Positions 40,372 to 44,422 of a DNA stretch of 64,000 nucleotides are shown here, in pieces. The notes beneath the pieces are model-generated. The model worked only from the letters and a program-made list of their open reading frames with translations. It did not search any database and was not told the DNA's origin. The position numbers and the translations under genes are program-made. Location: assembly GCF_025143825.1 (NCBI RefSeq), contig NZ_CP083560.1, forward strand, positions 1,302,001-1,366,000, given 5' to 3'. How positions within the stretch are numbered: position 1 is the first letter of the stretch; each line of letters begins with the position of its first letter. The stretch comes from Sulfitobacter sp. S223. GTDB lineage: Bacteria > Pseudomonadota > Alphaproteobacteria > Rhodobacterales > Rhodobacteraceae.

Positions 40372-42783
40372 ATGAGCAGTTTTGATGAAAATGCCGCCTT
40401 TGAAGGCGCCTCTTTGTCCGCGCGTGCAATGGCAGCGCGTCCACAACCGTATCTTGATGGTCTGAATCCCGCACAACGTGAAGCTGTGGAAAAAATGGAC
40501 GGTCCGGTTTTGATGCTGGCGGGGGCCGGCACGGGGAAAACACGTGCGCTGACCGCACGGATTGTACATCTGCTTAACACCGGTCGCGCGCGCCCGAACG
40601 AAATTCTGGCCGTGACGTTTACGAATAAAGCCGCGCGCGAGATGAAAAATCGCGTTGGGGCCATGCTTGGCCAACCGGTTGAAGGAATGCCATGGCTCGG
40701 CACTTTCCACGCGATTTGTGTAAAGCTGCTGCGCCGCCACGCCGAACTGGTAGGATTGAAATCAAACTTCACTATTTTGGATACTGATGACCAGCTTCGT
40801 CTGCTGAAACAGTTGGTAGCCGCCGAAGGCATTGATGACAAACGTTGGCCCGCAAGGATGCTGGCAGGCATCATTGACGACTGGAAGAACCGCGCATTGA
40901 CGCCGGACAAGATACCGGCGGCGGATGCCGGGGCCTATAATCATCGCGGCCCGGAAATTTACGCCGCCTACCAGAAACGTCTGTTGGAACTGAACGCCAC
41001 TGATTTTGGTGACCTGCTGTTGCATATGGTCACGATCTTCCAGACGCATGAAGACGTGTTGAACCAGTATCAACGCTGGTTCAAATACATCCTTGTTGAC
41101 GAATATCAGGATACCAACGTCGCACAGTATCTGTGGCTGCGCCTTCTTGCGGCAGGTCACAAGAATATCTGCTGCGTGGGCGATGACGACCAGTCGATCT
41201 ATGGTTGGCGCGGCGCCGAAGTTGGCAATATCCTGCGGTTTGAAAAGGATTTTCCGGGCTCGCACGTGGTGCGTCTTGAGCAGAACTACCGTTCCACCCC
41301 GCATATCCTTGCGGCTGCTTCCGGCGTGATTGCCGGTAACGCCGGACGCTTGGGCAAGACGTTGTGGACAGAGGCAACGGACGGAGAGAAACTCCGTCTG
41401 ATCGGCCATTGGGATGGCGCTGAAGAAGCCCGCTGGATCGGAGACGAGATCGAATCGATGCAGCGCGGCACACGCGGGCTGCGCCCCTTCAGCCTTGATC
41501 ACATGGCGATTCTCGTGCGTGCATCGCACCAGATGCGCGCGTTCGAAGACCGGTTCCTGACCATCGGTTTGCCGTATCGTGTGATTGGTGGCCCGCGGTT
41601 CTACGAACGGCTCGAGATCAGGGACGCGATGGCCTACTTCCGCGTTGTGACCTCTCCTGATGATGATCTTGCGTTTGAGCGGATTGTGAACACGCCCAAG
41701 CGCGGACTTGGGGATGTGGCCCAGAAGAAAATTCAAAGCGCGGCGCGGGAAAATGGCACCAATCTTGTTGAGGGTGCACGGATTTTGCTCTCTCAGAACG
41801 GCATTGGCGGGAAGGGCGGCGCGCAACTACGGCTGCTGATAGAGGGGATCGACCGTTGGTCATCCAAGCTGCGTGGCCCGCGGATCGAAGTGAATGACGA
41901 TAGCGTGTTGGACGACGGTGGACCGGTTCGAATGGACTTTGCCCCGCCAGAGATGAGCCATGTTGAACTGGCAGAGATGATTCTGGACGAAAGCGGCTAT
42001 ACCGGTCACTGGCAGAACGACAAAACGCCCGAAGCGGCGGGGCGTCTAGAGAACATCAAAGAGCTGGTTAAGGCGCTGGATCAATTCGAGAATTTGCAGG
42101 GATTCCTTGAGCATGTCAGCCTGATCATGGACAATGAGCAGGAAAGCGAAGGGGCCAAGGTTTCTATCATGACGCTGCACGCGGCAAAGGGGTTGGAATT
42201 TCCCGCCGTGTTCCTGCCCGGTTGGGAAGATGGGTTGTTCCCCTCGCAGCGGTCGATGGATGAAAGCGGACTGAAGGGTTTGGAGGAAGAGCGGCGGCTG
42301 GCCTACGTCGGCATCACCCGCGCAGAAGAGATTTGTACCATTTCGTTTGCGGCCAACCGACAGGTATTTGGCCAGTGGCAAAACGCGATGCCGTCCAGAT
42401 TTATTGATGAACTGCCCGAACAGCATGTGGACGTGCTGACACCTCCTGGCCTTTATGGAGGTGGATACGGCGCGGCCATGCCGCAAAGCACGCTGCACGA
42501 AGCCGCGTCCGAGGCGAATGTTTACAATTCTCCGGGGTGGCGGCGTTTGCAAGCGCGTGCAGGCACGCGCGGGATGAGCCAGCCAAGCGAATCCAAAAAC
42601 GTCACCATTGATATGACTGCAACCAGCAGCTTTGTTATGGGGGAGCGGGTGTTCCACCAGAAGTTCGGCTATGGCTCTATCATCGGGATTGAAGGTGATA
42701 AACTGGAAGTCGCCTTTGAAAAAGCGGGCGACAAGAAGGTCGTTGCGCGATTCTTGACAGCTGCGGATGATGTGCCCTTCTAA
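40372..42783 (+). CDS. UvrD/PcrA-type superfamily 1 DNA helicase
   Basis: The 803-residue 3-prime to 5-prime helicase for nucleotide-excision and mismatch repair carries SF1 motifs in order: Walker A LAGAGTGKTRAL (about 47-58), DEYQDTN (motif II, about 243), GDDDQSIYGWRGA (III), LEQNYRS (IV), TLHAAKGLEFPAVFLPGWEDG (V, read as two pieces) and VGITRAEE (VI). The C-terminal tudor-like FHQKFGYGSIIGIE marks UvrD/PcrA. It is divergent from lldD with a 219-base shared region. Choice between uvrD and pcrA names is conventional. Confidence 0.93.
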   Translation: MSSFDENAAFEGASLSARAMAARPQPYLDGLNPAQREAVEKMDGPVLMLAGAGTGKTRALTARIVHLLNTGRARPNEILAVTFTNKAAREMKNRVGAMLGQPVEGMPWLGTFHAICVKLLRRHAELVGLKSNFTILDTDDQLRLLKQLVAAEGIDDKRWPARMLAGIIDDWKNRALTPDKIPAADAGAYNHRGPEIYAAYQKRLLELNATDFGDLLLHMVTIFQTHEDVLNQYQRWFKYILVDEYQDTNVAQYLWLRLLAAGHKNICCVGDDDQSIYGWRGAEVGNILRFEKDFPGSHVVRLEQNYRSTPHILAAASGVIAGNAGRLGKTLWTEATDGEKLRLIGHWDGAEEARWIGDEIESMQRGTRGLRPFSLDHMAILVRASHQMRAFEDRFLTIGLPYRVIGGPRFYERLEIRDAMAYFRVVTSPDDDLAFERIVNTPKRGLGDVAQKKIQSAARENGTNLVEGARILLSQNGIGGKGGAQLRLLIEGIDRWSSKLRGPRIEVNDDSVLDDGGPVRMDFAPPEMSHVELAEMILDESGYTGHWQNDKTPEAAGRLENIKELVKALDQFENLQGFLEHVSLIMDNEQESEGAKVSIMTLHAAKGLEFPAVFLPGWEDGLFPSQRSMDESGLKGLEEERRLAYVGITRAEEICTISFAANRQVFGQWQNAMPSRFIDELPEQHVDVLTPPGLYGGGYGAAMPQSTLHEAASEANVYNSPGWRRLQARAGTRGMSQPSESKNVTIDMTATSSFVMGERVFHQKFGYGSIIGIEGDKLEVAFEKAGDKKVVARFLTAADDVPF

Positions 42784-43413: not shown

Positions 43414-43517
43414 TGGATAGCCTGCCTTTTCGCAACGTTCCTTAAACAATGATCGAAAAAGGTGGCGATTTTCCGACAGGATATAGGTTATCGCGCGGAA
43501 GCAGTTATGCCGGAAAT

Positions 43518-43693
43518 GCAAAACGGCGGACCCCAGGGAGGTGGGGGCCGCCGCTCTATAAGGTGCACCCTTCCGAATGGGAGGAGGGAAAGATGCAGCT
43601 TTCACAGCGCGGGGTCATCAGGGAGGTGAGACTCTGCCGTGCCGTCATTCCCCTGCGGATCGATGGGAGGAAAGACCCGCAGGGAATAGGGAT
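43518..43693 (-). ncRNA. Four-hairpin CCUCCC-loop (cuckoo/CcsR-type) sRNA array downstream of DUF1127
   Basis: On the minus strand, directly after the DUF1127 stop, lie four successive stem-loops, each presenting CCTCCC in its loop: 43651-43684 (8-bp stem CCCTGCGG/CCGCAGGG, loop with TTTCCTCCC), 43603-43641 (weaker stem, loop CACCTCCC), 43564-43597 (11-bp stem with G-U pairs, loop CTCCTCCC) and 43525-43552 (GC-rich stem, loop ACCTCCC, followed by TTTT as a terminator). This is the layout of the CcsR1-4 RNAs downstream of the DUF1127 gene ccaF1 (RSP_6037) in Rhodobacter sphaeroides. The loops are anti-Shine-Dalgarno-like and would pair with purine-rich leaders. Processing sites are not predictable. 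Confidence 0.82.
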
Positions 43694-43912
43694 TTATTTA
43701 ACCATTTCAGCCGCTTCAAGGGACAGGCGACGGAAGTCACCGCGCGAGAAGCCCAGATCGGCCAGATCGCGTGCTGTGAGTGTGCACAGCTCATCATATG
43801 TCTGGCGGTAAACTTTGCGCTGGCGCATCTTCAGACCGATCGCATCGAACATTGCTGCAATGCGGCGTGGCTGTGTGGATACGGTTGCGGTTGTGTCTGT
43901 GAAGTATGCCAT
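43694..43912 (-). CDS. DUF1127 (YjiS-like) small protein, CcaF1-like
   Basis: The 72-residue protein ends with the DUF1127 helix-turn region TYDELCTLTARDLADLGFSRGDF, preceded by a basic, RNA-binding-like segment (MRQRKVYRQ). In Rhodobacter sphaeroides the equivalent protein, encoded just upstream of CCUCCUCCC-motif sRNAs, binds RNA and aids sRNA maturation. Here too a four-hairpin array follows the stop codon directly. A candidate RpoH promoter lies about 40-70 bases upstream. GAGAG before the ATG is a modest ribosome site. Confidence 0.85.
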   Translation of the reverse strand: MAYFTDTTATVSTQPRRIAAMFDAIGLKMRQRKVYRQTYDELCTLTARDLADLGFSRGDFRRLSLEAAEMVK

Positions 43913-43952
43913 TGGCTCTCTTTCATCTCGATTACGTCTTGTTGTGATCAGT

Positions 43953-43980
43953 ATTTAGGGATTTGACCATTTGGTTCAAG
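43953..43980 (-). promoter_or_regulatory. Candidate RpoH-type promoter for DUF1127 and its sRNA array
   Basis: On the minus strand CTTGAA is followed after 14 bases by CCCTAAAT, matching a heat-shock sigma factor promoter (CTTGAA and CCCxTAT-like boxes). It lies 41 bases before the DUF1127 start. The CcsR locus of Rhodobacter is RpoHI/RpoHII controlled, so this is the expected type. The start site is unmapped. Confidence 0.55.
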
Positions 43981-44103
43981 ACGTAATGCTGCAATGCGGC
44001 TATGCATTTTTTGCATATGCAGAAATTTTGGTATGCGGCTGTTTCTACGCAATAATACTGACAGATTCTCACGGTTCTGTGATCGCGCGCCGGGTGCTGG
44101 AAT

Positions 44104-44230
44104 AAAAAAATGGCGACGACATCAGGGAGGAGGAAGATGTCGCCGCCTTAAAGAAAAGAGATGCCCGGGAGGAGGATGGGAACCTCTTTGATATTCAAGA
44201 AAACCATCGGGAGGATTGCTTTCATGCATT
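44104..44230 (-). ncRNA. Second, three-hairpin CCUCCC-loop sRNA array upstream of DUF1127
   Basis: Minus-strand hairpins with CCTCCC loops lie at 44199-44223 (six pairs, loop AATCCTCCCGAT), 44155-44189 (about 11 pairs, loop ATCCTCCTCCC) and 44112-44147 (12-bp stem, loop TTCCTCCTCCCT). Seven T residues follow the last, making a strong intrinsic terminator that separates this array from the DUF1127 transcript. No small protein gene precedes it, so it is transcribed alone. A loose TTGTGC...CGCTAAAA pair near 44238-44262 may be its promoter. It is the same RNA type as the array after DUF1127. Confidence 0.78.
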
Positions 44231-44422
44231 TGTTTTAGCGCTAATTGCTGCGCTTGCACAATCTTTTTTTGCGCAATGCTGCCATGCGGCATGCGCATAT
44301 GTTGGTTGTTGCTTAATATTTGTGCACAGGATTTTGGGCGAAAGTGATGACATGCCGCAGCGCCGAGACTTGCGATTTCTGTCTGATCTGCGATGTCATG
44401 CGCTGTCACAAGGAGTAGTGCG

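Follow-up and report, generated by a model that had tools for sequence, protein, structure and literature searches.

What kind of regulatory unit is formed by a small DUF1127 gene and the C-rich hairpins that surround it, and which regulator could act on it? The locus that raises this question lies on the minus strand of the window, that is, the whole 64-kb stretch of DNA analysed here, which comes from the 4.03-Mb genome of a marine bacterium in the Sulfitobacter group. A preliminary description had placed a DUF1127 gene with four CCUCCC-loop hairpins at 43518-43912 and had read it as a complete CcsR-like sRNA operon. These coordinates are sound for the gene and for the array downstream of it (array B), but they omit a second array of CCUCC(U)CC loops at 44233-44104 (array A). 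Read along the minus strand, the order of elements is box A, promoter A, array A, box B, promoter B, DUF1127 gene and array B, and of the 18 CCTCCC sites that the 64-kb window has on this strand, 7 fall within 700 nt at this locus. It is flanked by an ApbC/Mrp-type gene (44393, plus strand) and, on the other side, by a UvrD/PcrA-type helicase gene (40372-42783, plus strand). Between array B and the helicase gene, 3' of the array, lies a short gene (42787 to about 43413, minus strand), the start of which resembles a signal peptide; its match to DUF4189 is sub-threshold at 22.8 bits (cut-off 25).

We consider it probable that the locus is of the cuckoo or DUF1127 (CIN1) kind and consists of two sRNA units, both activated by a LysR-type regulator. 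The DUF1127 gene of unit B (43694-43912, minus strand) encodes a CcaF1-like protein of 72 residues that scores 36.1 bits against Pfam PF06568 (cut-off 23.3), and its orthologues are present across the genus. Upstream of it, the putative promoter B, CTTGAA-N14-CCCTAAAT, was found as previously described (43953-43980, minus strand; 43980-43953 in the direction of reading). It is RpoH-like as read from the letters, and control by RpoH is plausible. Array B starts directly 3' of the gene on the same strand and comprises four hairpins, namely B1 (43649-43686), B2 (43602-43647, with a long interrupted stem), B3 (43560-43601) and B4 (43519-43558, or 43515-43558 with its T run), all on the minus strand. 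B4 is followed by TTTT, giving a terminator-like end. When 43510-43693 (minus strand) is folded without constraints, the minimum-energy structure consists of exactly these four hairpins, with CCUCCC in every terminal loop; the open reading frame, the Pfam score and the fold thus agree with the gene and four hairpins first reported, and the TTTT is likewise seen in the sequence.

The fold energy of array B is -82 kcal/mol (z -5.1) and none of 200 shuffles was equally good, while the chance of finding four CCTCCC within the 176-nt 3' region is about 0.003 under a first-order Markov model. Its hairpins are single units with a spacing of about 43 nt. The loop sequences are complementary to Shine-Dalgarno sequences, which bears out their earlier designation as anti-Shine-Dalgarno loops. 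The full nine-base motif CCUCCUCCC is found in the loop of B3 only, since B1, B2 and B4, with their CCUCCC loops, have six of its nine bases; in the genus, none of 22 loci carries the full motif in the fourth hairpin.

Unit A sits just 5' of the DUF1127 gene and has its own box, promoter and terminator. Promoter A, TTGTGC-N17-CTAAAA (44233-44261, minus strand), is again putative and read from the sequence, and its TTGTGC-N17 pattern is kept across the genus. Array A as a whole (44104-44233, minus strand; fold z -5.5) contains three CCUCC(U)CC-loop hairpins and, over 44108-44233, resembles the ar14 and CcsR1 sRNAs at scores below the Rfam gathering level. Its hairpin 1 (44199-44223) has a weak stem with CCUCCC in or near the loop, the motif being partly paired in the unconstrained fold. 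Hairpin 2 (44155-44189), recognised by fold and covariation, and hairpin 3 (44104-44147) both carry the full CCUCCUCCC in the loop. Hairpin 3 is followed by a run of seven T residues that makes it a terminator, and in an alignment of 28 loci 99% of its cells are paired.

The arrangement is well conserved. CCTCCC repeats occur on both sides of the DUF1127 gene, at near-constant distances, in 28 of 30 genus loci, with one to five downstream repeats per locus; L025 and L028, amongst these first 30, are other DUF1127 genes and were excluded. When 80 named Rhodobacteraceae loci are considered, the gene is followed by two or more CCTCCC in 77. Upstream arrays, again of at least two, occur in 22 of the 80, nearly all of them from Sulfitobacter, and array A therefore appears to have been added in this clade.

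The stems show compensatory exchange. For array B, 90 double-change cells were counted as compared to 26.8 in shuffles, and for array A 40 as compared to 12.9; in neither array did any of 500 shuffles reach the observed count. B1 has double changes in six of six aligned pairs, and 97% of the cells of B4 are paired (23 loci). On sliding the partner by 1-3 columns the signal was lost in both arrays, although these slid controls are biased towards the structures because the structures were derived from the same alignments. The invariant loops provide evidence that is independent of alignment-derived structures: in both arrays the loops stay constant while the stems vary with compensatory exchange.

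To which RNA family do these arrays belong? A covariance search over 43500-44240 had been suggested as a check on the CcsR-like reading, with lack of a significant match counting against it. Significant matches were obtained, on account of the upstream array A, at E values of about 1e-8 for both CcsR1 and ar14: 51.7 bits over the full ar14 model (RF02344; gathering 58.8) and 41.8 bits at 44108-44194 for CcsR1 (RF02791; gathering 65.3). Array B matches ar14 weakly (28.7 bits, gathering 58.8), and a fragment of it reaches 14.3 bits with CcsR1 (gathering 65.3); the gathering score is reached by neither array with any model. The Rfam families STnc500, Scr3202 and snR67 also gave matches here, which we attribute to chance or to overlap of the motif and set aside.

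The CcsR-like operon proposed earlier is hence retained in its architecture, that of ccaF1-CcsR, which is kept across Rhodobacteraceae, but not in the CcsR membership of the four hairpins, in view of the score of 14.3 bits, the three loops of four without the nine-base motif and the single-hairpin units. CcsR RNAs are described as having two stem-loops each (PMC3927594, for RS0680a). As array B departs from CcsR in two features, the full motif and the two-hairpin units, we class the locus as a variant, apparently ccaF1-CcsR-like in its working and of the DUF1127-cuckoo (CIN1) kind, in which the CcsR1-like unit is array A, upstream, and not array B. On scanning 149 genomes of the order with the CcsR1 model, 136 gave a match at E <=0.001 and four scored above gathering; the narrow Rfam cut-off conceals the greater part of the family among Rhodobacteraceae. 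The top genome (G149, 106 bits) has a ccaF1-type gene for 71 residues followed by a long array, in which 14 full CCUCCUCCC motifs are arranged in pairs.

The hairpin operon itself is of a known kind. Like the ccaF1-CcsR1-4 operon of Rhodobacter sphaeroides, it has a DUF1127 gene of about 71 codons followed by tandem hairpins with C-rich anti-Shine-Dalgarno loops, an RpoH-like promoter and a terminator at the end (PMC10253847). It differs in that the four hairpins of array B stand singly, mostly expose the short CCUCCC and lack a model match, and in that the CcsR1-like unit is a separate predicted transcription unit upstream. Array A, in turn, is similar to alpha-r14/NfeR1 of Sinorhizobium in its three hairpins, CCUCCUCCC-type loops, terminator and own promoter with a TGCA-N6-GCAT box; however, it stays below gathering, has a weak first hairpin with CCUCCC alone and adjoins a DUF1127 gene. 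The cuckoo RNA family, as reportedly defined by Reinkensmeier and Giegerich in 2015, comprises two to four adjacent hairpins with a constant C-rich loop and variable stems in alphaproteobacteria, and is said to have CCUCCUCCC in each loop. Both arrays resemble it with three (A) or four (B) neighbouring hairpins, constant C-rich loops and variable, compensated stems, whereas two of the three loops in A, and one of the four in B, carry the full CCUCCUCCC.

The preliminary description did not contain the LsrB/VtlR-type box that precedes both units. When the promoters of the two units are aligned, an extended box ATGCR-N5-YGCAT-RGC-N-GC-N-TTGC is common to them. Its two copies without mismatch, which we regard as candidate operators of the LsrB/VtlR type, are box A, ATGCGCATGCCGCATGGCAGCATTGC (44273-44298, minus strand), conserved ahead of array A throughout the genus, and box B, ATGCAAAAAATGCATAGCCGCATTGC (43991-44016, minus strand), which precedes the DUF1127 gene. 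The extended box contains the LsrB site of S. meliloti, TGCA-N6-GCAT (PMC10746234), which is exact at unit B and one base off at unit A. On the opposite strand it contains the VtlR motif of Brucella, CAATGCAGCCATGCA (PMC12595884), present with two mismatches at both window promoters (TGCATAGCCGCATTG and CGCATGGCAGCATTG).

Within 170 nt upstream of the gene, the published VtlR motif was found at up to three mismatches in 60 of 80 loci, as compared to 3 of 1600 block shuffles, a control that is approximate by the nature of such shuffles; at array A it occurs in all 22 loci possessing that array. The dyad of box B is present at up to one mismatch in 28 of 28 genus loci (1.4 expected), and in all 28 its distance to the TTG of the -35 element of unit B is 30 nt. 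At most SorX/SorY-type promoters the corresponding distance is 40-41 nt. On PnfeR1, LsrB occupies positions -72 to -57 (PMC10746234).

In the 4.03-Mb genome the exact extended box has two copies, both at the promoters of this locus, a perfect score with some circularity in it, since these two promoters supplied the pattern. The copies next in rank are free of this circularity. One, with a single mismatch, lies 121 nt upstream of a second DUF1127 gene coding for 72 residues (L066; G000 C1:952820-953038, minus strand), downstream of which no CCUCC hairpins were found; another, with two mismatches, lies between a LysR gene and an sRNA. At the DUF1127 genes C1:2003859 and C1:2830058, box and hairpins are both missing. 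Across 15 other genomes, a slightly relaxed form of the box gave 29 copies at up to one mismatch and the reversed-pattern control none, and 25 of the 29 precede DUF1127 genes or CCUCCC sRNAs. Sorted by position, 22 of the 29 fall at the ccaF1-type gene, at array A or at the sRNA next to the LysR gene, and three of the remaining seven precede DUF1127-type genes. The box also stands upstream of the ccaF1-type gene in G149, the genome with the best CcsR1 match, and the copy at L217 is exact.

The LysR gene brought up by the box scan (C1:1509303-1510202, minus strand; 1549-2448 of L084) encodes 300 residues. The known context of lsrB is beside trxB (PMC7486931, PMC11975290); a LysR gene adjoining trxB was looked for in the genome studied here and is absent. 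The protein is 50% identical to a trxB-adjacent LysR protein from another alphaproteobacterial family, the best match of which in our genome is this very protein (309 bits, next 134). Its best relative in the PDB is LsrB of A. tumefaciens (9HH1; 240 bits, next 102; E 2e-70), and its DNA-binding region is nearly unchanged among aligned relatives. All 29 Rhodobacteraceae tested have a single orthologue at E <1e-60, with 75-89% identity. By these comparisons, an orthologous regulator of the LsrB/VtlR type is present in the genome. LsrB has conserved redox cysteines at C144 and C273 (PMC11975290). The residues aligned to them are not cysteine in either case, and sensing would therefore differ from that of LsrB; the signal of this protein may be another one.

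Directly downstream of the LysR gene lies an sRNA of the SorX/SorY type (1365-1450 of L084, C1 near 1509200, minus strand), and a box dyad is located between the two. In 29 of 29 Rhodobacteraceae, as well as in our genome, the RNA at this place has ACCUCCCUGUUGGA as its core and carries a terminator. It scores 55.5 bits with the SorX model of Rfam (gathering 46.6) and below gathering with SorY; as SorX of R. sphaeroides derives from the 3' UTR of the response regulator gene RSP_0847 (PMC9438474), the RNA may by its position rather be SorY. In A. tumefaciens, abcR1 and abcR2 occupy the matching position (PMC7486931). Downstream of the trxB-adjacent LysR gene of the other alphaproteobacterial family (L249; G050 C4:160925-161803), CCTCCCTGTT and, after it, a hairpin were observed, likely an AbcR/SorY-like sRNA in the matching position.

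These features invite comparison with the VtlR/LsrB regulon of Rhizobiales, which includes DUF1127 genes, AbcR1/2, VrsA and NfeR1. There, VtlR activates DUF1127 genes (PMC12595884), and LsrB is an indispensable activator of NfeR1, a three-hairpin anti-Shine-Dalgarno sRNA that pairs with ntrB (PMC10746234). In common are the orthologous LysR protein, the matching box, DUF1127 genes and CCUCCC sRNAs as predicted targets, and an sRNA gene adjoining that of the regulator. The differences are the host, a member of Rhodobacteraceae, the regulator gene being away from trxB, its product without the redox cysteines, and a neighbouring sRNA that is SorX/SorY-like and not AbcR. A 2025 paper with few genomes sampled regarded LsrB as apparently unique to Rhizobiales (PMC11975290); our data argue against such uniqueness, and the shared box suggests that a regulator deemed rhizobial also runs this circuit in Rhodobacteraceae.

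We infer that DUF1127 proteins would be co-induced with the anti-Shine-Dalgarno sRNAs by one LysR regulator acting together with an RpoH-type sigma factor. From a site some 30 nt ahead of the -35 element, the LysR protein would activate both units in conjunction with an RpoH-type or the housekeeping sigma factor, the former most likely at unit B. It would likewise induce the second DUF1127 gene as well as the SorX/SorY-type sRNA that adjoins its gene. Unit B would be a single transcript, a CcaF1-like DUF1127 mRNA with four anti-Shine-Dalgarno hairpins as its 3' region. Array B would probably be freed from it by RNase E with the aid of the DUF1127 protein, by analogy with CcaF1, which binds RNA and influences the maturation of CcsR, and with CcaF1/RNase E processing (PMC10253847). 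Unit A would give rise to a CcsR1/ar14-like sRNA from its own promoter to its own terminator. Through base pairing with ribosome-binding sites of the GGGAGG type, the unpaired C-rich loops could then reduce translation from many mRNAs, and a transcript with several loops would offer more binding sites. DUF1127 proteins may also act through protein contacts, as CcaF1 complements an Agrobacterium DUF1127 mutant with a defect in PhoR signalling (PMC12501420).

Start sites of the form GGGAGG-N4-9-ATG number 143 in comparison to 25 for the reversed pattern, which is too common for specific targets to be named; those sampled belong to solute-binding proteins, acyl-CoA dehydrogenases and others. The full nine-base complement was checked at two places, one before a receiver-domain protein and the other without a reading frame, and is a weak indication.

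Could the same sRNA locus be driven solely by RpoHI/RpoHII, as described for R. sphaeroides, with the box serving another regulator or as a DNA-structure element? The RpoH-like promoter B would suit such control, but we think it unlikely, as the box fits two published LsrB/VtlR motifs, keeps a constant distance to the -35 element, is linked to DUF1127 genes and CCUCCC sRNAs in 15 genomes and recurs before the ccaF1-type gene of G149, which has the best CcsR1 match. The hairpins might also be conceived mainly as binding sites for the DUF1127 protein or Hfq, acting as a sponge or as an mRNA-stabilising 3' region instead of as mRNA-pairing sRNAs. The RNA binding of CcaF1 and its effect on CcsR maturation (PMC10253847) are in keeping with this, as is the joint encoding of DUF1127 protein and hairpins. 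However, it is the anti-Shine-Dalgarno sequence that is constant while the stems vary, and for the related NfeR1 loop pairing at an mRNA start has been shown (PMC10746234), which makes a mainly protein-binding function quite improbable. The two roles are mutually compatible.

That the arrays are a repeated intergenic element or a series of terminators devoid of regulatory function appears highly implausible. The last hairpin of each array does resemble a Rho-independent terminator, yet the loops are invariant and the stems covary, the order, spacing and promoters are kept over the genus, and the nine-base motif has no genome-wide excess.

Returning to joint activation by a LysR protein, we lean, with some reserve, towards an old alphaproteobacterial circuit that extends beyond Rhizobiales, in which one LsrB/VtlR-type regulator would jointly control DUF1127 proteins and anti-Shine-Dalgarno sRNAs (cuckoo/CcsR and SorX/SorY-type) throughout Rhodobacteraceae, R. 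sphaeroides probably included. This would connect the stress sRNAs of R. sphaeroides (CcsR, SorY, SorX) with the rhizobial VtlR/LsrB regulon (DUF1127, AbcR, NfeR1), two sets that are separate in the literature searched and for which a single regulator is predicted here, and would give a possible reason for the co-occurrence of DUF1127 proteins and anti-Shine-Dalgarno sRNAs. The locus further displays the two-array arrangement, of which no report was found in the freely accessible literature. Nor did that literature yield anything connecting an LsrB/VtlR-type regulator with CcaF1/CcsR or SorX/SorY, and the novelty of both is provisional.

A further occurrence of the box was observed at L312 (G103 C7 near 1409204), about 150 nt upstream of a DUF1127-type gene that has a TTGTGC-type promoter. 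A CCTCCC motif is present within 500 nt, and this is possibly another cuckoo-type locus.
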